Origin: Anadara kagoshimensis
Lineage: Eukaryota; Mollusca; Bivalvia; Arcoida; Arcidae
DNA: 64,000 nt
Reading direction: 5' to 3'
Assembly (NCBI GenBank): GCA_021292105.1
Contig: CM037861.1
Coordinates: 52,540,920 to 52,604,919 of the forward strand
Under the pieces are notes generated by a model. That model ran no database searches and had not been told where the DNA came from. It saw nothing but the letters and a program-made list of their open reading frames with translations. Position 1 is the first letter of the stretch. Every line of letters begins with the position of its first letter. Both the position numbers and the translations under genes were made by a program. Below are positions 301-64,000 of this stretch, piece by piece.

Positions 301-984
301 TTGATTTAAAAATTACTCCCCTTTTAAAAGTGTTAAAAAGTACATTGCATAAAAATAATTAATACATTTAAATTTGATATTACATCTGTGGTTTCCACAC
401 TCCAGTTTATCACTTAAATGATTAATATGGATGAAAGTGCTGCATTAATGTTTTCCAGAAAAAGAGATATCTGCAGAAAATTCTCAAAAGAAATCGAAAA
501 AAATAATTAATCGATTTGTAACATTAAATTTGATATTGTATCAACAATTTTAATACTAATAATCTGTTAAAACATTGAAATGATTGATATGAATAAATTT
601 GTGGGCGGAGCTATGTGAATGCAATTTCAAACTGTCATAGAAACCATAAAACATGATGACACGTGGATCAATATTCATCTAACTATTGTTTAAAAGACCT
701 AAATCATAAAATAGGTTTGTGGTTTGGGAATAGGTCTGTTTGTGTAAAGGTAATTTGCTGTGAAGGACGAAAATCTCACAAAAATGAATGATCAGACTGG
801 ATGAAACCATTTTGTAGAAAGGTGTCTTATCTTTCCTGATCACGCGGTTGTCCATCTTCGTTTTACTAAGGATTCCCGTTACTAAAAGCTAAACTAGTTT
901 ATTTTTATCAGGAAAAACGCAATAGTTTTTACATTGTTTCTTTCCCCAGTTTAAATAGTTGTTTGGAATAAAATTGTAGCTTAG
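301..984. other. No gene or recognisable element seen
   Basis: AT-rich DNA after the first family A copy; no long frame, splice-bounded exon or repeat match noticed. Confidence 0.5.
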
Positions 985-1240
985 AAACAATCCCTAGGGA
1001 ACAGCCGATGGAACAAGCTAAGTAAAACAAACTATGGAAAACTCATTGAAACCAGCTGAGTACATGCCACTAGGAAACAGTCAATAAAAACAGCCGAGAA
1101 ACATTCAATAGGAAACAGTCTAAGAAATCAGCTGAGAAACATCTATAGTAACAGTCAAGTAAATCATTTCGGGTACAGCAGCAATGAAACTAGCTGAAAA
1201 TCTGTCATTAGGGAACAGTCAATAAAACCAAGAATGAGAA
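985..1240 (+). repeat. Degenerate ~55-60-bp tandem repeat
   Basis: GGAAACAGTCAATAAAAACA and AGCTGAGAAACAT-like words recur about five times with indels. Confidence 0.65.
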
Positions 1241-1469
1241 CAACAAAATCAAACAGATTTTTAAAAAATAAACACATATTTGATTTCAATGTTACATAGT
1301 TTTACATTAGATCAGAAGATAAATAATCTGTGATCTATAATTTATAGTTATATAATTTAATTTATAGTTTTTCGTATTTCATTATACCATCCTGCTCTGC
1401 TGTACATACAAAACATCAGAACAGACTTGAATGTGACTAGATACTTAATCTCAATAATAAAGATATAGC

Positions 1470-1612
1470 ATTACAATCACAAGGAGGATGCAACTAGAAA
1501 TGATTAGACGAGTAATCATATGTGGGGTCATAAAATACTAAGTCTTCTAGCTGGTACGTTTGTTTGTGTATCTGCGCTGTACACATGTATCAAAAATCCT
1601 TGACAAATTTAG
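1470..1612 (+). repeat. Dispersed repeat F, copy 1
   Basis: ACTAGAAATGATTAGACGAG, TGGGGTCATAAAATACTA and TTTGTTTGTGTATCTG are shared with 2796-2942. Confidence 0.75.
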
Positions 1613-2249
1613 TAATTACGTGATCTTTCACTCATTAGAAAAGTGTGGTCCGGTGGTCCGGAATGGTTAGCACCTCCTCGAGAAAAGCAAGCAACGAGTG
1701 AAACATGAAAATCGAGATAAACGTATACAGAAACCACTGACTACTATAATCTCAACTCTGGATAGACACGAGATAGTACTAATGGTTTTATTGGCGTCGT
1801 TAAAGTTCTTAGAGTGTGGACTCATACGAAAACTAATGTCAAAATAGTATCCAGTGCCAATCAAGTTTATTCGGAGGAACTTTTCCATGATCAATACTCG
1901 TGTCTGAGTAAAAACCTTTTACTACATAGGTATGGGTTCTCTATGGCATGTACAACGTTGAAAAAATTATGTTTTACAAAATACTTGATCAGTTCTTTTT
2001 TTAATTATCCCTATATAGTTTTCGCTTTTTATCACGGTAGTTCCTGTTTTGATCGCTACACGTAAAACATCTGAATAGTCAAGGGAACATCACCAAGGTT
2101 ACTTGTAACCAATACATTTTGTGCCAAAAGACAACAAGTACCAACGAAAACAATTAAAGAAGATTAACGAATTTCTTCTTAATCTAATAAAATTAACATT
2201 TAAACCATTTTGTATTTTTAAATTAATTTTATTAACTATTTCAAAGTTG

Positions 2250-2458
2250 AAATTTCTCAAACACTAAGGTATACTCCCTCATGCAAAGTATTTCTTAGCT
2301 TAATTTGGTAAAATATATTTTGGTCCTTTGGGTAGCTTTTCAACATCTTCAAAATAATTTTGGTTTCATAATTTTGGTCCAAGCACTACTGATGAGGATT
2401 GTATCCCGAAACGGCCGTCTAGTGCTGTAAAATTGAAACTGGTATAATATGTAATTAT
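2250..2458 (+). repeat. Family B element, copy 1, with hammerhead motif
   Basis: A ~210-base dispersed repeat running from an ACTAAGGTATACTCCCTCATGC-like segment, through TTTTGGTCCTTTGGGTA and TTTGGTCCAAGCACTACTG, to a CTGGTATAATATGTAAT end. It contains the ribozyme motif described at 2382-2426. Confidence 0.85.
2382..2426 (+). ncRNA. Type I hammerhead ribozyme motif (family B copy 1)
   Basis: Stem I is AGCACTA with TAGTGCT (7 bp, perfect). The catalytic blocks CTGATGA and GAAA are intact. Stem III is the short palindrome ACGGCCGT, and the cleavage triplet is GTC with predicted cleavage after 2419. Stem II (GGATTGTATCCC) has lost a base relative to the consensus GGAATTGTATTCC and pairs poorly, so activity may be reduced. 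Confidence 0.7.
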
Positions 2459-2795
2459 AAAGCATTACTAGAAAATACCTATCTCGCCTACAAATATTTT
2501 TTATCAATCAAGAAAATGCACATACTTCTAATATTTTGCATACATGGAGGACAACTGTAAACTTCGATGTTTATGTGTGTTTAAATGTAAAAATTAATAC
2601 ATAGTCAGTTTTGAAAAAGAAATTAAAAAATAATTATAAATAAAACTTGATTTTACTAAATAGTTTTTCCTAAGCACGAGTTGATATAAAACGCATGGGA
2701 ACGAGTTGTCTTGGATAGTGTATGAGTTGTCCAGCAACCTAAATACTTTAGGTTATGGCTTTATAATGAATCTCTTTATGTATATATGAATAAGA

Positions 2796-2942
2796 TAACA
2801 GCCACAAGGACGTTCAACTGGAAATAATTAGATGAGTAAGCATATGCGGGGTCATAAAATACTACGATGTATTGCTTCTAGCTGGAGCTTTTGTTTGTGT
2901 ATCTGGGCTGTACATATGTGTCAGAAATCTTTGATATTTTGA
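2796..2942 (+). repeat. Dispersed repeat F, copy 2
   Basis: Collinear with 1470-1612 over about 140 bases, with a small insertion (GATGTATTGC) before CTTCTAGCTGG. Confidence 0.75.
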
Positions 2943-3457
2943 TATTGTCAAATCCCAGGGTAATTCAATCTACATGCCCTGGTTTATCAATACTTGTCGG
3001 TGATAATGGACATGTAGAGATCTTTCTATAGTAAAGCCATTATCATCTTCAAAATCTATACACACAAAGAAAATGAGCGAATCATTGGAGACATAAGAAG
3101 ACACTTGACTAATACAATAGCGAACCATGAATGGATCTCATTAGTAATATAACGACCTATTTAGTATAACATGTTAAACATTATTTCCAGTGTGCAGATA
3201 GACGCAAATAAAGTTGATGCGGCTTCAAACAATAACTCACTCACTTACTTCACTTCACTGAACATGAAGCAACGTGAAATAAGAGGATGAAATATAGTTT
3301 GATGATGTTAACAAAGAACAAAGAAATATTTAGATCAATACACATTAGTGTAATAAATAAGACAAAGTAACCACGGTTGGGTTTTTTATCATTGCACTGA
3401 ATAACAGCATCGCGAAACCGTGTCCTTTGACCTCTGTTATTTGTTCTTAACTCTTTA

Positions 3458-3945
3458 ACACATGCGGATATATTCTGATCTACACTATGGAAAGTGGAAC
3501 ACATGCGGGTATATTCTGATCTGCAACACCGAGAGTGGAACACATGCGAGTAAATTCCGATCTACATTATGGAGAGTGGAACACATGCGTTTAAATTCTG
3601 ATCTACACTATAGAGAGTGGAACGCATGCGGGTATATTCTGATCCACACTATGGACAGTTGAACACATGCGTTTATATACTGATCTAAACTATGGAGAGT
3701 GGAACGCGTGTTGATATTCTGATCTACACCATGGAAAGTTGAACACAAATATTCTGATCTCCACTATGTAAAGTGAAATATAAGCGGGTATATTCTGATC
3801 TACACTAGGGAGAGTGGAACACATGCGGGTATATTTTGATCTATACTGCGGAGAGTGGAACACGTGCTAGTATAATTGGGTCTACAGCATGGAGAGTGGA
3901 ACATATTCTGATCTACACTATTGAGAGTGGAACGCATACGGGTAT
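3458..3945 (+). repeat. ~42-bp minisatellite (about 12 units)
   Basis: The unit is built from ACACATGCGGGTATATTCTG and ATCTACACTATGGAGAGTGG with AA; later copies are degenerate with small deletions. Short open frames here (for example 3462-3662) are repeat artefacts. Confidence 0.9.
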
Positions 3946-3960
3946 ACAATACGGAAGTAG

Positions 3961-5710
3961 TAAAACACGGAGTAATACAATTCTGATGTCCCCTGGTATA
4001 TAGTTATGGAATGACTGGGTTAAATGGGATTTTACGTCCCAGTGCTAGTGAAAACGCCATGTCACCATCAATATAATGTATTTGACTTTCCAGAGTACAC
4101 AAAATATACTTGAACAAGTTGACAATATATTGATCGACTACACAAGCTTCAATGTAAAACTTTGGTACCAAGGGATATACAACTTCATTACTGTGTTTAA
4201 TGGAAAACATATCTTTGAAGATTCATAAAGCATTTTCCGTCTTAATATTTCTGATGACTATAATGACAAAATAGATTTCATGTGTGCCTCTGAATTCTGA
4301 TAAAAAGCACATGATTAATTACATAATATGTAAGCATAATTGATTTTTCAAACAAAATTGCCTTTAACTTTACAAAAATAAGTCGATCCCTATTTAGCTG
4401 GGAAATGAAATTAAAAAACCAAACAATAAATTAACTACTTAATAAAAATAGAGTAATTAGTCACATATAGTTTTGGTTTCCAATATTACCTAGGTAAATT
4501 TGAACAGTTTCCCCCTGATCCAACGGTTAGACTGACACTGGATTTGGTATGCGATACATTGCCTCATGTATGTGTACATTTGTGTCAAGTTTGATAGACA
4601 TGGGTAATATGGAGTGATATTTGGACGGCCAGAATCCAGGCTGATTCCTATGTACTCCCAAACTTTGTTTGCGGGGGTGAAGCAACTGGGAACCTCATAT
4701 CAACTTATATCAATTAAACTTAAACTTGGTTGTCTTTTTAAAATGTAGGATTGTTTTAACATGTCGTTATTTTTAGAATCACCAAGCTGCAAATGCTGTG
4801 GATAGATCTATGGTTCGATTTCCGCTTTGTCTTAAACAAAGAAGCGACAATGCGAACACGAGCAACTTTGCTTATGATTCTCTGTATTCAAGACGAAGGT
4901 GTTGGTAATTGGAAACTGACCGTTACTTGACAGAGTAGAACAAGAACTTTTAATAATTTATTTTCAAAATGTAAGATTTTTATAGCTAAATGGCATGCAA
5001 ATTGGCGATAGTCAAAACATTCAAGGACACAAAACTGAAAGAATCAAGGCCAACGCATTCATTTAACAAACTCCATGAGAATAAACCACCAACAAAGCTT
5101 TCTAGCACTAAACTTGGTTATAAAGGATTCTGAATAATAGATATGACACTCACGACCGTTTAGAATCATATTAGATGTAGACACATCTGTCTGGGAACAT
5201 CAGTAGTCTCAGGTTCTCAAGTACAAGATGATACTCTTCATTTATATAACCTTTACCTTTCTGTCTATTATGTAATACGTGTGTTATGCTTACAATAAAA
5301 GCACCGTAAAACACCAAATAATGCCGATAAAATCAATCCCATTTTATGGATTTTTTTGAAAATGTAAATATAATGAATAAATAAGATAAATTTTGAGAAT
5401 GTATTTTCCATTCTTTAAGTAGATTATTTAAACACAAACATATATATTAGTCCATGAACAAACCATTAAACTATTTTACGTTTTACTTGTGCATTGACAA
5501 TGTGGAAGTCTGATGACCTCCCCAATCATACTGACATCTCAACCTTTTAAGTCATTATCTTGGTTCTATTCATCCAACATTTTCAAAAACTTCATATTTT
5601 AAATGCAGAGGCTATTTGGGGCTGTTTGTTCTGCTGTTGGATGTTTCCCCGATGATATCACAAACTCAATGGGCAATAAATGTACATATTGTCAGAAATA
5701 TACTTTTGTC
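3961..5710. other. No gene seen
   Basis: 1.75 kb of AT-rich sequence between the 42-bp minisatellite and family B copy 2. The only frames are short (such as 68 codons at 4004-4210) and lack domain-like content. Confidence 0.5.
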
Positions 5711-23919: not shown

Positions 23920-24905
23920 CTCGCAATATTTTGATAAGTATCCAAAGTTTTTGATATATATATCAAACGTCGTATTGGTTCATGTTATTTTGTTCTCAAT
24001 TTCAATTTCAGACGTGGCGGTTGTAGCTACTAGACAGGAGCACTGTCTCTTCCTGGGCACCTGGACTCACCTCCCTGGTTGAAGTCCACGTATTTCACGT
24101 CCTATTGGTTCAGTTACTTTATTGCCAATTTCGATTTCAGACGAGGCGGTTGTAGCTACTAGACAGGAGCACTGTCTCTTCCTGGGCACCTGGACTCACC
24201 TCCCTGGTTGAAGTCCACGTATTTCACGTCCTATTGGTTCATGTTATTTTATTCCCAATTTCGATTTCAGACGTTGCTGATGTAGCTATTAGACAGGAGC
24301 ACTGTCCCTTCCTGGGCACCTGGACTCACCTCCCTGGTTGAAGTCCACGTATTTCACGTCCTATTGGTTCATGTTATTTTATTCTCAATTTCTATTTCAG
24401 ACGTTGCAGATGTAGCTATTAGACAGGAGCACTGTCCCTTCCTGGGCACCTGGACGCACCTCCCTGGTTGAAGTCCACGTATTTCACGTCCTTTTGGCTC
24501 ATGTTATTTTATTCTCAATTTCGATTTCAGACGTTGCAGATGTAGCTATTAGACAGGAGCACTGTCCCTTCCTGGGCACCTGGACTCACCTCCCTGGTTG
24601 AAGTCCACGTATTTCACGTCCTTTTGGTTCATGTTATTTTATTCCCAATTTCGATTTCAGACGTGGCGGATGTAGCTACTAGACAGGAGCACTGTCCCTT
24701 CCTGGGCACCTAGACTTACCTCCCTGGTTGAAGTGTCCTATTGGTTCAGTTACTTTATTCCCAATTTCGATTTCAGACGTGGCGGGTGTAGCTACTAGAC
24801 AGGAGTACTGTCCCTTTCTGGGCACCTGGACTCACCTCCCTGGTTGATGTCCACGTGGTTCACTTGGTTTGCCAGTTTTTTAAATTTTTTTCGTTTTGCT
24901 TTTTT
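23920..24905 (+). repeat. 130-bp tandem array of a family A segment (7 copies)
   Basis: The GACGTGGCGG-type block starts at 24011, 24140, 24270, 24400, 24530, 24660 and 24776. That gives periods of 129-130 and a last step of 116 caused by a deletion. Each unit contains a TTTCGATTTCAGACG block, the sequence GTAGCTACTAGACAGGAGCA, a CTTCCTGGGCACCTGGA block and CTCACCTCCCTGGTTGAAGT. The array is bounded by ordinary family A sequence on both sides (23920-24010 and 24860-24905), so it is an expansion inside one element. Confidence 0.92.
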
Positions 24906-34840: not shown

Positions 34841-35948
34841 AGCTGCGGCTTTAAGCAATAATTTACTCACCTCCCATCCTGTAATCTCACATAATCACAA
34901 TGCTCAGTATTGGAATTCTATTTTTTAAAAATTGCAAAAATAAACCACGTGTTTTCTTTATATCATTATTGGGAAATTGAATTTCATAAATCTATATCAG
35001 AGCCTCGTAAATCATCATTCTTACGTACAATTTATGGATTATATATATGTTTAATTATAACAATGTTGTCCCGTCTTGTGTTACTCTATATATCAAATCA
35101 TCAAGAAGAACATAATACGAGGATATGTATTAACCATATATATTTACTGATGACATTTGACCAAAGAGCGTTGACTGGCGTGATTTATTACCAAAACGTA
35201 ATTTAAAGGCTGATAACTCACAATTCTTATGATTTGTAATAATAATACTGGAAGTTATGCCTGATCTTGAACCTTTGGTTTAATTTAACATTATTGACAA
35301 AACACACCAACGGGAGATTAGTTGATCAATTGTAAATCGCTGAAACTTACTTCAAATCAAAATCAATGCAATTTAACGCAATTTCAGGTTTTTTCCAATG
35401 AAAATTCAATACAAATTTCATTTAGAAATAATGCCTTAGCGCAGTTGCATTAGATAACTGCTGGGTTGTATTTGCAGTAATTATATTGGTTTTCATGGAT
35501 GATCAGAATCAAGGAGATGTGTTTTATTTTGAACCCTCCCATCGTGCCTCTGTAAATCATGCCTTAGATTTAGCGCGGAGTACGTACAAGAGGTGTTAGT
35601 TTATAATCAGGAGAGTCATCGTCGCGAGTTATACCACTGCAGAAAGCGTGAAAATCGATAAATCAAACTATTTCGTGATTAGATTATGATTCTTGCTCGC
35701 TGATGATTCTGCAAAGACGACAGAAAAAAATAATTTTCAATTATTCTGTTGTTTGAGGCTCTTCAAAGGATTTCATGCGAGATAATAGACAGGGAAGTTT
35801 GAGATTAAAGTCGGTTGATCAATCAATATAACCAAGTCTAAAAATTTAATCTGGATAATACCGATTTTCCTTCAAAGTAAAACTTGAATACAGCTCGCGC
35901 TGCCGTTCTAAGTGACACCGATGCTAAACAATGAAGAAGGGTGAAGCC
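34841..35948. other. No gene seen
   Basis: Sequence leading up to the SINE-tail array. A 98-codon frame at 34910-35206 has no recognisable domain. Confidence 0.5.
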
Positions 35949-38900
35949 ATGGTGTTTAACGTCCCAGTCATTGTGTTTTACGTCCCAGTCATGGTGTTTT
36001 ACGTCCCAGTCATGATGTGTTCCAAACATGGTGTTTTATGTTCAAGTCATGGTGTCTCCCAGGCACGGTGTTTTACGTCCCAGTCATGGCGTTTTACGTC
36101 CCAGTCATGATGTGTTCCAGACATGGTGTTTAACGTCCCAGTCATGATGTGTCCCAGGCACGGTGTTTTACGTCCAAGTCATGGTGTGTCCCAGACACGG
36201 TGTTTTACGTCCCAGTCATGGTGTGTCCCAGGAACGGTGTTTTACGTCCCAGACACGATGTTTTACGTCCCAGTCATGGTGTATCCCAGATACAGTGTTT
36301 AACGTCCCAGTCATGATGTGTCCCAGTCATTGTGTTTTACGTCCCAGTCATGGTGTTTTACGTCCCAGTCATGATGTGTTCCAAACATGGTGTTTTACGT
36401 TCAAGTCATGGTGTCTCCCAGGCACGGTGTTTTACGTCCCAGTCACGGTGTGTCCCAGGCACGGTGTTTTACGTCCCAGTCATGATGTGTCCCAGGAACG
36501 GTGTTTTACGTCCCAGACACGATGTTTTACGTTCCAGTCATGATTATTTACGTTCCGGTCATGGTGTTTTACGTTCCAGTCATGGTGTTTTACGTCCGTT
36601 ATAGTGTTTTACGTCCCAGTCATGGTGTATCCCAAATACGGTGTTTTACGTCTCAGTCATGGTGTATTCCAGACACGGTGTTTTACGTCCCAGTCATGGT
36701 GTTTTACGTCCCAGTTATGGTGTATCCCAGACACGGTGTTTAACGTCCCAGTCATTGTGTGTCCCAGACATAGTGTTTAACGTCCCAGATAAGGTGTTTT
36801 ACGTCCCAGTCATGATGTTTTACGTCCCAGATATGGTGTTTTACGTCTCAGCCATGGTGTACCCAAACACGGATTTTTTACTTCCCAGTCATGGTGTGTC
36901 TCAGACACGGTGTTTTACGTCCCAGTCATGGTGTATCCCAAACACGGTGTTTTACGTCCCAGTCATGGTGTATCCCTGACACGGTGTTTTACGTCCCAGT
37001 CATGGTGTGCCCCAGGCACGGTGTTTTACGTCCCAGTCATGATGTTTTACGTTCCAGTCAAGGTGTTTTACGTTCCAGTCATGGTGTTTTACGTCCCAGT
37101 CATGGTGTATCCCAGACACGGTGTTTTACGTCCCAGTCATGATGATTTACGTTCCAGTCATGATGTTTTACGTTCCAGTCATGGTGTTTTACGTCCCAGT
37201 CATGGTGTATCCCAAATACGGTGTTTTACGTCTCAGTCATGGTGTATTCCAGACACGGTGTTTTACGTCCCAGTCATGGTGTATCGCAGACACGGTGTTT
37301 TACATCCCAGTTATGGTGTATCCCAGACACGGTGTTTAACGTCCCAGTCATTGTGTGTCCAAGACATAGTGTTTTACGTCCCAGTCATGATGTTTTACGT
37401 CCCAGACATGGTGTTTTACGTCTCAGCCATGGTGTACCCAAACACGATTTTTTTACTTCCCAGTCATGGTGTGTCCCAGACATGGTGTTTTACGTCCCAG
37501 TCATGGTGTATCCCAAACACGGTGTTTTACGTCCCAGTCATGGTGTATCCCAGACACGGTGTTTTACGTCCCAGTCATGGTGTGTCCCAAACACGGTGTT
37601 TTACGTCCCAGTCATCACGGTGTTTTACGTCCCAATCATGATGTTTTACGTCCCAGTCATCACGGTGTTTTACGTCCCAATCATGATGTTTTACGTCCCA
37701 GTCATGATGTTTTACGTCCCAGACATGGTGTTTTACGTCTCAGTCATGGTATACCCAAAAACGTTGTTTTTTTACTTCCCAGTCATGGTGTATCCCAGAC
37801 ACGCTTTTTACGTCCCAGACACGGTGTTTTACGTCCCAGTCTTGGTGTATCCCAGACACAGTGTTTTACGTCCCTGCCATTATGTTTTACGTCCCAGCCA
37901 TGGTATTTTTACGTCTAAGTCATGGTGTATCCCAAACACGGTGTTCAACGTCCCAGTCATGGTGTGTCCCAGACACAGTGTTTTACGTCCCTGCCATTAT
38001 GTTTTACGTCCCAGCCATGGTATTTTTACGTCTAAGTCATGGTGTATCCCAAACACGGTGTTCAACGTCCCAGTCATGGTGTGTCCCAGACACAGTGTTT
38101 TACGTCCCTGCCATTATGTTTTACGTCCCAGCCATGGTATTTTTACGTCTAAGTCATGGTGTATCCCAAACACGGTGTTCAACGTCCCAGTCATGGTGTG
38201 TCCCAGACACAGTGTTTTACGTCCCAGTCACGGTGTGTCCCAGACACGGTGTTTTACGTCCCAGTCATGGTGTGTCCCAGACACGGTGTTTTACGTCCCA
38301 GTCATGGTGTATCCCAAACACGGTGTTTTACGTCCCAGTCATGGTGTATCCCTGACACGGTGTTTTACGTCCCAGTCATGGTGTGTCCCAGACACGGTGT
38401 TTTTCGTCCCAGTCATGATGTTTTACGTTCCAGTCAAGGTGTTTTACGTTCCAGTCATGGTGTTTTACGTCCCAGTCATGGTGTATCCCAGACACGGTGT
38501 TTTACGTCCCAGTCATGATGATTTACGTTCCAGTCATGATGTTTTACGTTCCAGTCATGGTGTTTTACGTCCCAGTTATAGTGTTTTACGTCCCAGTCAT
38601 GGTGTATCCCAAATACGGTGTTTTACGTCTCAGTCATGGTGTATTCCAGACACGGTGTTTTACGTCCCAGTCATGGTGTATCGCAGACACGGTGTTTTAC
38701 ATCCCAGTTATGGTGTATCCCAGACACGGTGTTTAACGTCCCAGTCATTGTGTGTCCAAGACATAGTGTTTTACGTCCCAGTCATGATGTTTTACGTCCC
38801 AGACATGGTGTTTTACGTCTCAGCCATGGTGTACCCAAACACGATTTTTTTACTTCCCAGTCATGGTGTGTCCCAGACATGGTGTTTTACGTCCCAGTCA

Positions 38901-40497
38901 TGGTGTATCCCAAACACGGTGTTTTACGTCCCAGTCATGGTGTATCCCAGACACGGTGTTTTACGTCCCAGTCATAGTGTGTCCCAAACACGGTGTTTTA
39001 CGTCCCAGTCATCACGGTGTTTTACGTCCCAATCATGATGTTTTACGTCTCAGTCATGATGTTTTACGTCCCAGACATGGTGTTTTACGTCTCAGTCATG
39101 GTATACCCAAAAACGTTTTTTTTTTACTTCCCAGTCATGGTGTATCCCAGACACGCTTTTTACGTCCCAGACACGGTGTTTTACGTCCCAGTCTTGGTGT
39201 ATCCCAGACACAGTGTTTTACGTCCCTGCCATTATGTTTTACGTCCCAGCCATGGTATTTTTACGTCTAAGTCATGGTGTATCCCAAACACGGTGTTCAA
39301 CGTCCCAGTCATGGTGTGTCCCAGACACAGTGTTTTACGTCCCTGCCATTATGTTTTACGTCCCGGCCATGGTATTTTTACGTCTAAGTCATGGTGTATC
39401 CCAAACACGGTGTTCAACGTCCCAGTCATGGTGTGTCCCAGACACAGTGTTTTACGTCCCTGCCATTATGTTTTACGTCCCAGCCATGGTATTTTTACAT
39501 CTAAGTCATGGTGTATCCCAAACACGGTGTTTAACGTCCCAGTCATTGTGTGTCCAAGACATAGTGTTTTACGTCCCAGTCATGATGTTTTACGTCCCAG
39601 ACATGGTGTTTTACGTCTCACCCATGGTGTACCCAAACACGATTTTTTTACTTCCCAGTCATGGTGTGTCCCAGACATGGTGTTTTACGTCCCAGTCATG
39701 GTGTATCCCAAACACGGTGTTTTACGTCCCAGTCATGGTGTATCCCAGACACGGTTTTGTCCCAGTCATAGTGTGTCCCAAACACGGTGTTTTACGTCCC
39801 AGTCATCACGGTGTTTTACGTCCCAATCATGATGTTTTACGTCTCAGTCATGATGTTTTACGTCCCAGACATGGTGTTTTACGTCTCAGTCATGGTATAC
39901 CCAAAAACGTTTTTTTTTTACTTCCCAGTCATGGTGTATCCCAGACACGCTTTTTACGTCCCAGACACGGTGTTTTACGTCCCAGTCTTGGTGTATCCCA
40001 GACACAGTGTTTTACGTCCCTGCCATTATGTTTTACGTCCCAGCCATGGTATTTTTACGTCTAAGTCATGGTGTATCCCAAACACGGTGTTCAACGTCCC
40101 AGTCATGGTGTGTCCCAGACACAGTGTTTTACGTCCCTGCCATTATGTTTTACGTCCCGGCCATGGTATTTTTACGTCTAAGTCATGGTGTATCCCAAAC
40201 ACGGTGTTCAACGTCCCAGTCATGGTGTGTCCCAGACACAGTGTTTTACGTCCCTGCCATTATGTTTTACGTCCCAGCCATGGTATTTTTACGTCTAAGT
40301 CATGGTGTATCCCAAACACGGTGTTCAACGTCCCAGTCATGGTGTGTCCCAGACACAGTGTTTTACGTCCCAGTCACGGTGTGTCCCAGACACGGTGTTT
40401 TACGTCCCAGTCGTGATGTGTCCCAGACACAGTGTTTTACGTCCCAGCCATGATGTTTTACGTCCCAGTCATGGCATTTTTACGTCTAAGTCAATAT
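35949..40497. repeat. 4.5-kb satellite-like array derived from a SINE 3' tail
   Basis: The array alternates a ~21-base unit (core TTTTACGTCCCAGTCATG) and a ~37-base unit that adds a GTGTATCCCAGACACG segment. The very first unit (35949-35970) is identical to the reverse complement of the 3' tail of the local SINE (TGTTTAACGTCCCAGTCA; compare 47531-47555). Higher-order duplications are visible: blocks repeat about 1.40 kb apart (37221 and 38618) and about 0.79 kb apart (39213 and 40007). The unit lacks stop codons on the plus strand and 37 is not a multiple of 3, so all three plus frames stay open (longest 605 codons). I regard these as repeat artefacts. Confidence 0.93.
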
Positions 40498-59156: not shown

Positions 59157-62100
59157 GGCTCCGGAAACTTCCGGTCGTTGTCGGCACAGGACTGTCTGTG
59201 CGTGCATGTTGTGGAATATGTTTGTCAATCAAACCTATGTACCACAGTGTTTATTGCATGTGTATTAGGTGAAATCTAAGACGATGACTTTTACTGCTTT
59301 TCTAATCTACCGCAATATGCTGTTATTATCAATATGCGTTACAGCCCACAATGCTTGATACTGCACGTCCGCCATATTGTTTACTGACAATCGTGAATTT
59401 TCTTATACAGAAGATACACGAATAATAATAGAATTATCGCAAGAGGCTCCAAATAGGAATTCAGGTGTCACGAATCATGATATAACGGGAAGGGCTTGAC
59501 GAGGTTCCAATAAATTTATGTGAAATAAAAGATATTAATGCCTAACTTTTATTAAAATAAATTTGATCGCGTTTCTGTATTTCTTAATAAAGAAACAGTT
59601 ACGAAGCACGTAGTAGGTAATTTTCAACACCCAGCGTGGAACCTCTTTGATAACAAACTCTCATCCTTGACCGACACTCGTTATGGCTTCCGTAATCAGC
59701 ACAGTTACATCGATGCACTTATTATTAAACAAACACACGTTTAAAGAGAGTTGTGACGATTCTTACTGGGAAACAAAAAAATATACACGCAACAACTTCA
59801 GTCCACAGGTATTTACTGATTAATAAACAATCACCTGATTATTAGATCTTAATTACTGTCATATATAGTTGACAGGTAAACACGTGGTAAGGACAATATA
59901 CTTAGTGAAATCAGGTAGAGTATTAAAGACCAATGTAGTTTACTTTTGTCGGACTGAAAACTGATTTGTCTGTGTAATATTCCTGTTGTAAAATGTCCGA
60001 CTGGTGATTTTTTACGTCGGTCAAAATATATTTTTGTCAGACATGTCCGGCAAATATGACCGTTTCCGGACCTCTATACATATATATATAATATATATAT
60101 ATATATATCTGCAGCACAAAATTACCTTGTGCTAGAGTTTCTATATCAAATTCTTTAACATCTTTGACTGGTTCTTCTTTCATATCCCCTTGTCCTGGTA
60201 GAGGTTTGTCCGTTAACTTGCGGTAACTTACAGCATCACGTGATACCACCTTCTGAACCAATTTTCTTACCTACAATGAAACAAAAAGTGTTAGAAGAAC
60301 TAAACAGAGCAGCTCACCATTATATAAAGTAGTACATGTAGATAAAAAACTTTACATTGCCACATTGGACATCAACACTAATAGCTGTGAACTTTACAAC
60401 CGATATATCATACATTTGTACATCGAAATGAAAAATGCAATTTATAATGAATTAGTTGGAATCCCAGACAAGATTGATTTAGACATATGGAAACATCCAC
60501 TTTTAGAATAGTGAAGAAAACCACCAATCTGCCACAAATAAACGGGCAGATTTTTTAATTCTAGAATGTGTTGGAGTCAGATTTGGAAGGTGGCACAAAC
60601 ACTGGAAATTGATCCGTCACATCAGACAACTCAGTCTGTAAACTAAGGAGCAACCCCTTATATTATTAATACCAAAGTTGTTTTCAGTTGCAGACTATGG
60701 TTTGTGCTTACCTGTGCTCTAGACAGCTGTAGACCTATAGACAGTGCTTACCTGTGCTCTAGACAGCTGTAGACCTATAGACAGTGCTTACCTGTGCTCT
60801 AGACAGCTGTAGACCTATAGACAGTGCTTACCTGTGCTCTGGACAGCTGTAGACCTATAGACAGTGCTTACCTGTGCTCTAGACAGCTGTAGACCTATAG
60901 ACAGTGCTTACCTGTGCTCTAGACAGCTGTAGACCTATAGACAGTGCTTACCTGTGCTCTAGACAGCTGTAGACCTATAAACAGTGCTTACCTGTGCTCT
61001 AGACAGCTGTAGACCTATAGACAGTGCTTACCTGTGCTCTGGACAGCTGTAGACCTATAGACAGTGCTTACCTGTGCTCTAGACAGCTGTAGACCTATAG
61101 ACAGTGCTTACCTGTGCTCTAGACAGCTGTAGACCTATAGACAGTGCTTACCTGTGCTCTAGACAGCTGTAGACCTATAGACCGTGCTTACCTGTGCTCT
61201 ACACAGCTGTAGACCTATAGACAGTGCTTACCTGTGCTCTAGACAGCTGTAGACCTATAGACAGTGCTTACCTGTGCTCTAGACAGCTGTAGACCTATAG
61301 ACAGTGCTTACCTGTGCTCTAGACAGCTGTAGACCTATAGATTTTACTAACCTGTGCTCTAGACAGCTGTATACCTATAGACAGTGCTTACCTGTGCTCT
61401 AGACAGCTGTAGACCTATAGACAGTGCTTACCTGTGCTCTGGACAGCTGTAGACCTATAGACAGTGCTTACCTGTGCTCTAGACAGCTGTAGACCTATAG
61501 ACAGTGCTTACCTGTGCTCTGGACAGCTGTAGACCTATAGACAGTGCTTACCTGTGCTCTGGACAGCTGTAGACCTATAGATTTTACTAACCTGTGCTCT
61601 AGACAGCTGTAGACCTATAGACAGTGCTTACCTGTGCTCTAGACAGCTGTAGACCTATAGACAGTGCTTACCTGTGCTCTGGACAGCTGTAGACCTATAG
61701 ACAGTGCTTACCTGTGCTCTGGACAGCTGTAGACCTATAGATTTTACTAACCTGTGCTCTGGACAGCTGTAGACCTATAGATTTTACTCACCTGTGCTCT
61801 AGACAGCTGTAGACCCATAGACAGTGCTTACCTGTGCTCTAGACAGCTGTAGACCTATAGACAGTGCTTACCTGTGCTCTGGACAGCTGTAGACCTATAG
61901 ACCGTGCTTACCTGTGCTCTACACAGCTGTAGACCTATAGATTTTACTAACCTGTGCTCTGGACAGCTGTAGACCTATAGATTTTACTCACCTGTGCTCT
62001 GGACAGCTGTAGACCTATAGATTTTACTAACCTGTGCTCTGGACAGCTGTAGACCTATAGATTTTACTAACCTGTGCTCTAGACAGCTGTAGAACTATAG

Positions 62101-64000
62101 ACAGTGCTTACCTGTGCTCTGGACAGCTGTAGACCTATAGACAGTGCTTACCTGTGCTCTGGACAGCTGTAGACCTATAGATTTTACTCACCTGTGCTCT
62201 AGACAGCTGTAGACCTATAGACAGTGCTTACCTGTGCTCTAGACAGCTGTAGACCTATAGATTTTACTAACCTGTGATCTGGACAGCTGTAGACCTATAG
62301 ACAGTGCTTACCTGTGCTCTAGACAGCTGTAGACCTATAGACAGTGCTTACCTGTGCTCTAGACAGCTGTAGACCTATAGACAGTGCTTACCTGTGCTCT
62401 AGACAGCTGTAGACCTATAGACAGTGCTTACCTGTGCTCTAGACAGCTGTAGACCTATAGACAGTGCTTACCTGTGCTCTAGACAGCTGTAGACCTATAG
62501 ACAGTGCTTACCTGTGCTCTAGACAGCTGTAGACCTATAGATTTTACTAACCTGTGCTCTGGACAGCTGTAGACCTATAGATTTTACTAACCTGTGCTCT
62601 GGACAGCTGTAGACCTATAGATTTTACTCACCTGTGCTCTAGACAGCTGTAGACCTATAGACAGTGCTTACCTGTGCTCTAGACAGCTGTAGACCTATAG
62701 ACAGTGCTTACCTGTGCTCTAGACAGCTGTAGACCTATAGACAGTGCTTACCTGTGCTCTAGACAGCTGTAGACCTATAGACAGTGCTTACCTGTGCTCT
62801 AGACAGCTGTAGACCTATAGACAGTGCTTACCTGTGCTCTAGACAGCTGTAGACCTATAGACAGTGCTTACCTGTGCTCTAGACAGCTGTAGACCTATAG
62901 ACTGTGCTTACCTGTGCTCTAGACAGCTGTAGACCTATAGACAGTGCTTACCTGTGCTCTAGACAGCTGTAGACCTATAGACAGTGCTTACCTGTGCTCT
63001 AGACAGCTGTAGATCTATAGACAGTGCTTACCTGTGCTCTGGACAGCTGTAGACCTATAGATTTTACTAACCTGTGCTCTGGACAGCTGTAGACCTATAG
63101 ATTTTACTCACCTGTGCTCGAGACAGCTGTAGACCTATAGATTTTACTCACCTGTGATCTGGACAGCTGTAGACCTATAGATTTTACTCACCTGTGCTCG
63201 AGACAGCTGTAGACCAATAGTATGTATGATTTCCTCTACATCTTTGTCTAACATATATCCAGTATGATTCTGATCAAAGTATGTAAAAGCCATCAACAAT
63301 GCTGGTTCTATTGTTGTGTATTTCTTCTTTTCTTTTTTCTTGTCTTTATCTTTTTTAGCTAAAATAATTATTATATTGAGTTTACATACATACATGTAGT
63401 CATATGGTTATACTGATCATAATGCTTATCACATATACTTTTATAATTTTTATATAGCATATGATATAAGACCTACATGAATGCCATCCATAACTGTTTT
63501 TTGGTTTTTTTTTTACATTTGGGTGTTTTTACACTTCTCTATATCAGCAAGACAGGCATTTAAATATAAAGTTATTCAGGGTCAAGGTTATCAAACCAAA
63601 TATGAAAGGGTGCCAAATATGAATCTTCAAGCTAATGTAAATAAAACTCATGACAAAAATAGTCAAAGCAATATGCCTCTAAATCATACAATTTACATCT
63701 ACTGTGAAAACTGACACCATAGCTCATACTTGTTCATCTCTTATAAAACAAACCTTAACCTATCACACAACATATAACATTTGATAATCATGCTGAGGGA
63801 ATGACATAAGCTGGTGTGCACTTTTGTATTGGCCAGCTATAGCATACAGTTATTTACTAGAAAAATGACATATCTTATCAATATTTTACCTTTTTCATCA
63901 TCATCTTCAGCTTCTTCTTCCTCTTCTTTTATTTCTTCTTTTTTCTCTCCTTCAGTTTTCTTTTCATCATCCTTTTCTTTCTTAATTTTTGTATCCTTAA
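57316..64000 (-). CDS. CCAR1: CCAR1-like (cell division cycle and apoptosis regulator) gene, 3' part
   Basis: Five minus-strand exons (63890-64000, 63192-63358, 60126-60270, 58350-58583, 57316-57587) join in frame to give the C-terminal ~308 residues. The order is: a Lys/Glu-rich acidic stretch; the EF-hand-like region (ALLMAFTYFDQNHTGY, IGLQLSRAQ); the segment joining across the intron to VRKLVQKVV and YRKLTDKP; a linker; a region beginning MLDIESVMQRM; and a coiled coil ending NGAS. These match the end of CCAR1, including LSRAQV, FYRKLTD and the C-terminal NGAS. CCAR1 is a nuclear co-activator of nuclear-receptor and p53 transcription that also takes part in apoptosis signalling and splicing. 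The N-terminal S1-like, SAP and inactive Nudix regions lie beyond the window's right edge. CCAR2 is the alternative, but the C-terminus favours CCAR1. Confidence 0.9.
58107..58316. mobile_element. MITE in the last CCAR1 intron
   Basis: A 16-base perfect terminal inverted repeat, ACTGTGAAATCATTAA at the left and its reverse complement at 58301-58316, encloses about 210 noncoding bases. The right end lies only about 33 bases from the donor of the neighbouring exon. Confidence 0.75.
58350..58583 (-). CDS. CCAR1: CCAR1-like gene, penultimate exon
   Basis: 234 bases, phase 1 in and out (acceptor TTGTTCAG, donor AAAG|GTACAA). A polar Lys/Ser/Thr-rich linker (LELTQKRV..KGKSTQKK) precedes VNYKGSMLDIESVMQRMEK. 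This corresponds to the YNGAMVDVGSLLQKLEK region of vertebrate CCAR1 and starts the C-terminal coiled coil. Confidence 0.86.
59126..59153. repeat. (TA)n microsatellite, left side of intronic TIR element
   Basis: About 14 TA units ending at the CAGGGCTCCGG end of the element; a matching run follows at about 60078-60110. Confidence 0.9.
59154..60075. mobile_element. TIR-type DNA element (~0.92 kb) inserted into a (TA)n run in a CCAR1 intron
   Basis: The left end CAGGGCTCCGGAAAC and the right end GTTTCCGGACCTCT are inverted copies. Sub-terminal CCGG-rich motifs recur near the right end. (TA)n lies on both sides (59126-59153 and about 60078-60110), as if the element split one microsatellite. There is no coding capacity, so it is a non-autonomous element. 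The superfamily is not assigned. Confidence 0.6.
60126..60270 (-). CDS. CCAR1: CCAR1-like gene, YRKLTD exon
   Basis: 145 bases, phase 0 in and phase 1 out. The acceptor is CATTGTAG and the donor CAAG|GTAAT. It encodes VRKLVQKVVSRDAVSYRKLTD followed by a charged linker, ending at LAQG across the splice. The YRKLTD block is a strong CCAR1 signature. Confidence 0.88.
60703..63220 (-). repeat. 40-bp minisatellite (63 units) made of the CCAR1 exon end plus 5' splice site
   Basis: The array has 63 units of exactly 40 bases with no length changes: repeat phase is unchanged from first to last line. On the minus strand each unit reads GGTCTACAGCTGTC, AGAGCACAG, then a donor, then the spacer that ends CTATA. 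The first 24 bases equal the last eight codons (GLQLSRAQ) of the adjacent exon. Three donor types alternate: GTAAGCACTGT (majority), GTTAGTAAAAT and GTGAGTAAAAT (the last two together 17 units). The AAAAT types cluster at the exon-proximal end but also recur in the interior. Use of any donor beyond the first would add 40 bases per unit, shift frame and meet stops. Confidence 0.95.
63192..63358 (-). CDS. CCAR1: CCAR1-like gene, EF-hand-like exon; its end seeds the minisatellite
   Basis: A 167-base exon with acceptor TTTTAG, phase 1 in and phase 0 out. It encodes AKKDKDKK, then ALLMAFTYFDQNHTGY, then HTIGLQLSRAQ, and ends CAG|GTGAGT. Its last 24 bases and donor recur 63 times downstream in the intron. 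I place the true exon end at the first donor because AQ joins directly to VRKLVQKVV of the next exon, as in other CCAR1 proteins. Confidence 0.88.
63890..64000 (-). CDS. CCAR1: CCAR1-like gene, exon with acidic/Lys-rich stretch (cut by window end)
   Basis: Encodes 36 codons rich in Lys, Glu and Asp, ending AEDDDEK, with donor AAAG|GTAAAA (phase 1). The low-complexity charged run corresponds to the segment between the SAP region and the EF-hand-like region in CCAR1. The exon continues beyond base 64000. Confidence 0.85.

Follow-up and report, generated by a model that had tools for sequence, protein, structure and literature searches.

The window analysed here, a stretch of 64,000 nucleotides of the genome of Anadara kagoshimensis, carries on its minus strand part of a CCAR1 gene, as judged by predicted domains, in which a minisatellite extends from the end of an exon into the intron behind it (Table 1). 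The array in the window is designated array A, and a second one at C5:50.84 Mb array B. For the characterization of the host gene, a query of 994 amino acids was joined by eye from minus-strand open reading frame pieces of the window and of adjoining stretches (L010, L027, and L028). In Pfam, its DBC1, LAIKA, and S1-like domains scored far above cut-off, SAP just below it (23.2 bits vs. 23.9), and EF-hand_7 below it (21.8 vs. 30). By this domain set, with SAP and EF-hand_7 remaining sub-threshold, the gene is CCAR1. In a search of solved structures with the EF-hand piece, calmodulins and centrins were among the best 60 of 264 matches. A homologue search returned 843 proteins, and many of the 120 listed are named CCAR1; all of these 120 contain a GLxLSRAQ-type motif, so the peptide repeated in the array belongs to an exon end of deep conservation, and it was the exon that gave rise to the array rather than the reverse. 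Around the exon junction, the gene is residue-identical to protein P0018 of Tegillarca granosa. The proposal of the initial annotation that a real exon and donor of a CCAR1-like gene are involved is supported. An article on the splicing factor SRSF5 mentions CCAR1 148 times (PMC6018636); a literature search combining CCAR1, bivalve, and splice yielded only a crustacean paper.

Array A was detected by TRF with a period of 40, 62.9 copies, and 0% indels. Cut into 40-mers on the minus strand, it consists, as assembled, of 63 head-to-tail units, all in register, with unit 1 forming the end of the exon and units 2-63 being intronic. Every unit is composed of 27 exonic nucleotides, which encode IGLQLSRAQ in 55 of 63 cases and, in the remaining eight, a peptide with one residue changed, the core CAG/GT (63/63; the slash marks the splice site), and the beginning of the intron. 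The donors are of the types GTAAGC (46), GTTAGT (10), and GTGAGT (7). These results reproduce the initial annotation, which had described a 63-unit array free of indels, the end codons of the neighbouring exon followed by CAG/GT in each unit (the peptide being of the GLQLSRAQ type), 46 GTAAGC donors next to 17 of the other two types, and an acceptor at 60271, directly ahead of the next exon. An unrelated satellite that holds a donor by accident is rejected, as the unit encodes the conserved exon end, and because this coding sequence stands in register with the donor, the array is not a product of chance. Only 18 unit types occur among the 63 units, the top three with 29, 11, and 6 copies, which makes the proposed homogenisation or recent expansion likely.

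Table 1 Features at the CCAR1 exon-intron junction (window positions, except for array B)
Feature	Position	Strand	Remarks
Donor-spanning minisatellite (array A), 63 x 40 bp	60704..63220	-	Unit: IGLQLSRAQ exon end, CAG/GT, intron start
CCAR1 exon, 167 nt	63192..63358	-	Encodes KKDKDKKKEKKKYTTIEPALLMAFTYFDQNHTGYMLDKDVEEIIHTIGLQLSRAQ; last 27 nt are unit 1 of array A
Donor 1, CAG/GTGAGTAAA	63183..63194	-	Sole frame-keeping donor; strongest type by U1 pairing (-13.8 kcal/mol)
Donors 2-63, 40-nt spacing	60704..63154	-	Last donor G at 60711; premature stop when spliced in silico
Following CCAR1 exon (VRKLVQKVVSRDAVSYRKLTDKP...), phase 0	60127..60270	-	Acceptor TTTCATTGTAG/GTAAGA; acceptor at 60271
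Intron-side edge of array A	60685..60703	-	By eye, similar to the first bases of a 64th unit, now decayed (ATAGTCTGCAACTG vs. ATAGGTCTACAGCTG)
Array B, 50 units, same CCAR1 junction	C5:50.8387-50.8407 Mb (L009:4195-6186)	opposite to array A	One unit of 37 nt

When every donor of the two arrays was joined in silico to the next CCAR1 exon, the reading frame was kept by donor 1 only (1/63 in array A, 1/50 in array B). Donors 2-63 of array A lead to a stop codon after 15 extra residues, inside unit 2 (61 donors), or after 24, in the next exon (donor 2), and the other 49 positions of array B, seven of them without GT, to one after 14 or 24 extra residues. Since the stops hit all later donors, the in-frame distances recurring with every third unit fail too, and the earlier statement that use of any donor except the first runs into stops holds in silico for all 62 later donors. 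Pairing with U1 was calculated by RNAduplex with the modified bases of U1 disregarded, and amounted to -13.8 kcal/mol for GTGAGT, -11.0 for GTAAGC, and -9.8 for GTTAGT. In both arrays, donor 1 is of the strongest type, and donors of this type gather toward the exon, with permutation values (0.007 in array A, 2e-5 in array B) that are overstated because neighbouring units share descent and are not independent. A role of selection in preserving GT across array A was rejected as an explanation, retention in all 63 units being expected without selection with a probability of about 0.23 if 14 rare changes, counted by eye, are assumed. Nine of the 63 units of array A folded as RNA no better than shuffled sequences (z +0.85), and the DNA of three units gave a z of -1.05. 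Among 32 protein matches no truncated CCAR1 isoform was found, a weak test with 38 candidates only.

A DNA search of the genome with the array gave 28 matches, which represent array A, array B, and weak matches on C15. The donors of array B are more diverse: GTATTT (14), GTGAGT (9), GTATGT (7), GTAAGC (6), GTTAGT (5), GTAAGT (1), GTATGA (1), and seven units without GT. The GTATTT and GTATGA types (15/50 units) pair with U1 at -7.2 kcal/mol, and these weakest live donors occur from unit 17 onward; six of the GT-less units lie within units 30-49, the seventh being unit 8. With 7/50 units devoid of GT and 15 further ones reduced to GTATTT or GTATGA, the far donors are therefore not kept. The idea that units pass through the exon position and vary only synonymously, which was suggested by the common array A variants TCT/TCC and AGA/CGA, was dropped because the common variants of array B are nonsynonymous. 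In the two flanking exons, the copies differ at 7 of 311 nucleotides, all synonymous.

The window and its flanks are mirrored at the second copy piecewise, at about 74-98% identity and with numerous indels. The mirrored places have a near-constant coordinate sum, which puts the centre at about C5:51.72 Mb, and the arms, at the places sampled, extend over about 50.79-51.30 Mb and 52.14-52.64 Mb, i.e. about 0.5 Mb each; for the stretch at the centre (L017), no mirror match was found among the loci in one comparison. From these alignments, the pair has the look of two uncollapsed haplotypes joined tail to tail, or else of a large inverted duplication. The former is favoured by a near-identical pair on C15, about 1.35 Mb apart with main pieces of 91.5-94.9% identity, which holds the two copies of a 17-bp minisatellite (CTATAGGTCCCAGCTGT; L011:4397-4844 and L012:4202-4410). 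This minisatellite resembles 18 nt of the CCAR1 unit; as a candidate relative sharing its core it was set aside, and the resemblance is treated as chance, which is not proved. Unit number and content differ between the two copies of the CCAR1 locus (63 vs. 50), in line with the length polymorphism suspected earlier, and should arrays A and B be alleles, a single animal would harbour strong polymorphism of the array in length and content. Elsewhere in the window (35948-40493), a 4.5-kb array of mixed 21-, 37-, and 117-bp periods (CATGGTGTTTTACGTCCCAGT) has a mirrored counterpart of about 1.4 kb.

In other bivalves, 179 of 181 fetched proteins have a single LSRAQ-type motif. In T. granosa, protein P0121 (KUTeg_004135), numbered directly after the CCAR1 model KUTeg_004134, contains a CCAR1 exon, six blocks of 21-23 amino acids such as IYNCPEHRYVQSIDLQLSRAQ, and then VRKLVQKV in frame. 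A 21-residue block of P0121 matches translated array B in 17 of 21 residues, so the same kind of unit occurs, at the level of a protein model, at the CCAR1 junction of another ark clam; the search of related species suggested by the initial annotation located this array inside a gene model of T. granosa. P0121 is chimeric: 973 residues at its N-terminus, in which CCAR1 was not recognised, are joined to CCAR1 exons and to the translated array; the fusion is probably an annotation error, and the model may be a prediction only. In the neighbouring T. granosa model P0018, SRAQ runs directly into VRKL. The CCAR1 isoform X3 of Mytilus californianus (P0011) has five in-frame copies of 18 amino acids (EIIHTIGLQLSRAQVWIN-type) at the junction, with GLQLSRAQ present five times; its unit has different breakpoints and therefore is probably of independent origin. 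The proteins found for M. trossulus, M. galloprovincialis, and M. coruscus have one copy at the junction. As out-of-frame arrays are invisible in proteins, absence from the proteins of other species is uninformative. Arcoida and Mytilida both belong to the Pteriomorphia.

How often such arrays arise was estimated from a TRF survey of 183 kb of fetched sequence (period 18-48, at least three copies), which found 13 arrays and extrapolates to about 79,000 genome-wide, with an upward bias from the inclusion of array A. By chance, CAGGTRAG would be expected in about 150 of these. Tandem CAGGTRAG triples gave 2,825 genome matches vs. 760 for the reversed pattern (3.7-fold); no genome-wide excess of tandem donors is claimed, because a scrambled comparison pattern gave 1,490 matches and its reverse 5,633, and 2,825 falls within the range of 760-5,633. 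Among the matches listed, the donor triples, all within the first 20.6 Mb of C1, group into five arrays, which scales to about 270 vs. 150 and is too few to establish an excess. Simple arithmetic, assuming 200,000 introns and random seeding of 79,000 forty-base units, predicts that several hundred donors would be hit before selection, and an array spanning a donor is therefore expected somewhere in the genome. What is special to the CCAR1 array is its size, its register with a conserved exon, and the occurrence of another case at this junction in a mussel. Further tandem arrays of near-consensus donors are located at C1:15781237-15784203, C1:1810682-1812526, and from C1:20588333 onward, the latter with an acceptor-like TTTTCTCTGTAG ending 23 nt past the donor. 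The window itself also contains a seven-copy 130-bp array (23967-24863) that has six donor-like AGGTRAG sites when read on the minus strand and whose first 390 nt have stops in all three minus-strand frames, and a dispersed repeat (2240-2461) that is mostly 94-97% identical on many contigs, sometimes in neighbouring copies.

The best explanation, to which we assign a probability of about 0.72, is a fast-turning minisatellite that was seeded on a real splice donor and is tolerated there, with splicing taking donor 1. A 40-bp segment across the end of the CCAR1 exon and the start of the intron would have been duplicated in tandem and then have expanded, through slippage or unequal exchange, to a minisatellite. 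Donor 1, which lies nearest the exon and belongs to the strongest type, would be joined to the acceptor at 60271 and the remaining array be removed with the intron, so that its length and donor sequences could drift almost freely; the array would thus be tolerated because splicing uses the exon-proximal donor. Transcripts from later donors would terminate early and probably be lost to nonsense-mediated decay, a small cost that may set a weak bound on the array. We infer this donor use, the decay of the other transcripts, the neutrality, and the mode of growth from the arrangement and the donor patterns of the two arrays, in which no sign of selection for extra donors was found. The purely synonymous differences between the copies in the two exons, the absence of RNA structure in the nine units folded, the wealth of minisatellites in this genome, and a count of tandem CAGGTRAG triples within the range of the comparison patterns also speak for this explanation. 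Several points count against a neutral account: 46 of the array A donors pair fairly well with U1 (-11.0 kcal/mol), which makes leakage to later donors plausible; all 63 donors of array A keep CAG/GT, an outcome with a probability of about 0.23 without selection; the donor pattern exceeds its own reversed control 3.7-fold, which, if taken alone, hints at an excess; and the in-frame mussel array at the same junction is a coincidence greater than the account comfortably predicts.

The strongest of the alternatives, though unlikely, is regulated poison splicing, in which donors 2-63 would yield unproductive mRNA and tune the CCAR1 level, the leak being set by array length. Premature stops from the alternative sites, which such a switch needs, are found for 62/62 later donors in array A and 49/49 later positions in array B, many later donors are near-consensus, and this junction carries an array in the T. 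granosa model and one of a different unit in M. californianus. Conservation of the alternative sites, however, is not seen in array B, where 7/50 units lack GT and 15 more are weak, and in both arrays the productive donor is the strongest; the lack of a truncated isoform among the 32 protein matches weighs little, as such RNA would be degraded. The tuning of CCAR1 dosage suggested by the initial annotation is not supported, in view of the donor loss in array B, the folding of nine units, this weak protein test, and the genome-wide counts with no clear excess. Somewhat less probable is a reading according to which donor minisatellites have arisen repeatedly at this CCAR1 exon end in bivalves and serve as an adjustable leak, with a hypermutable copy number setting CCAR1 output, possibly with feedback by CCAR1; near-consensus donors behind the productive one would then send transcripts to decay in a proportion that depends on array length.

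Internal splicing of the units as micro-exons or by re-splicing, which would bring parts of the array into the mRNA through the acceptor-like CTATAG and the donor of each unit, has a slightly smaller chance still. KUTeg_004135 strings six array blocks of 21-23 amino acids between two CCAR1 exons and ends in frame on VRKLVQKV, and isoform X3 of M. californianus reads five units in frame; but the former is joined to a 973-residue part without recognised CCAR1 sequence and is maybe pure prediction, no pyrimidine tract was seen by eye ahead of CTATAG, and the neighbouring P0018 joins SRAQ to VRKL. It is improbable that the array acts as a U1 snRNP platform, be it for exon definition, as a guard against premature transcript ending, or as a U1 buffer: the 63 U1-pairing sites within 2.5 kb (-9.8 to -13.8 kcal/mol) would suit this role, but array B has 15/50 units of the GTATTT or GTATGA type (-7.2 kcal/mol) and seven more without GT, and the nine units folded behave like shuffles. 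The platform and dosage readings of the initial annotation keep a low probability and gained no positive support. Least probable of all is an assembly artefact, i.e. a wrong array length or a spurious second copy such as an uncollapsed haplotype or a collapsed array: the whole window does have an inverted near-copy, with sampled places converging at about C5:51.72 Mb in the pattern of two haplotypes tail to tail, but arrays A and B are unequal in length and content, a similar unit occurs in a species assembled separately, and the centre (L017) lacked a mirror match in one comparison, so that a full palindrome is not established.

Turri, Cuin, and Porter (NAR 23:1854) reportedly described in 1995 a minisatellite in the human gene IFI6 (6-16, G1P3) that provides multiple splice donors. 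Its unit is said to be short (12 bp) and in frame, so that extra units would merely add residues. A tandem repeat at the boundary with a donor in every unit is likewise found in array A (63/63), as in IFI6, whereas a unit length that is a multiple of three, as in IFI6, is not, the 63 units being 40 bp long and out of frame, with later donors unproductive in silico. In M. californianus X3, the 18 amino acids per unit would agree with a multiple of three. According to a paper that cites this work (PMC4526556), two downstream repeat units of IFI6 serve as donors, giving rise to three mRNA species. The human donor minisatellite is the closest and a direct precedent. M. californianus X3 shares with array A the gene, the junction, and an exon end repeated together with residues beginning with V, as GT would give, but its in-frame unit begins at a more upstream point of the exon, is part of the annotated translation, and is known from protein alone; the T. 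granosa array shares the junction and recognisably the same unit and is known from a protein model alone. Internal tandem repeats at exon-intron boundaries, with about four copies on average, are reported to alter splicing in human duplicated genes (PMC2812944), and intron gain through AGGT tandem duplication has been described (PMC4974935). Both systems resemble array A in having tandem repeats with splice sites and a changed exon-intron structure, but they concern new introns or exon variants, whereas in array A the copies of a donor lie within one intron and a new intron is not evident; the units of array A contain ATAG/GT and ACAG/GT. A donor array of this type in a bivalve was not found in the titles and abstract openings of the papers listed by literature searches on donor arrays.

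For annotation, the locus provides a warning, as gene prediction seemingly took the T. granosa array for coding exons and made it part of a chimeric model. Competing splice donors are usually studied in reporters with few sites. The CCAR1 locus offers a natural test of splice-site choice, with dozens of near-identical, evenly spaced donors behind one productive donor, and this test is widened by two copies of differing length and strength and by the in-frame version of the mussel. Junction counts would directly measure the influence of distance and donor strength on the choice and show how big a frame-breaking array a conserved gene tolerates.
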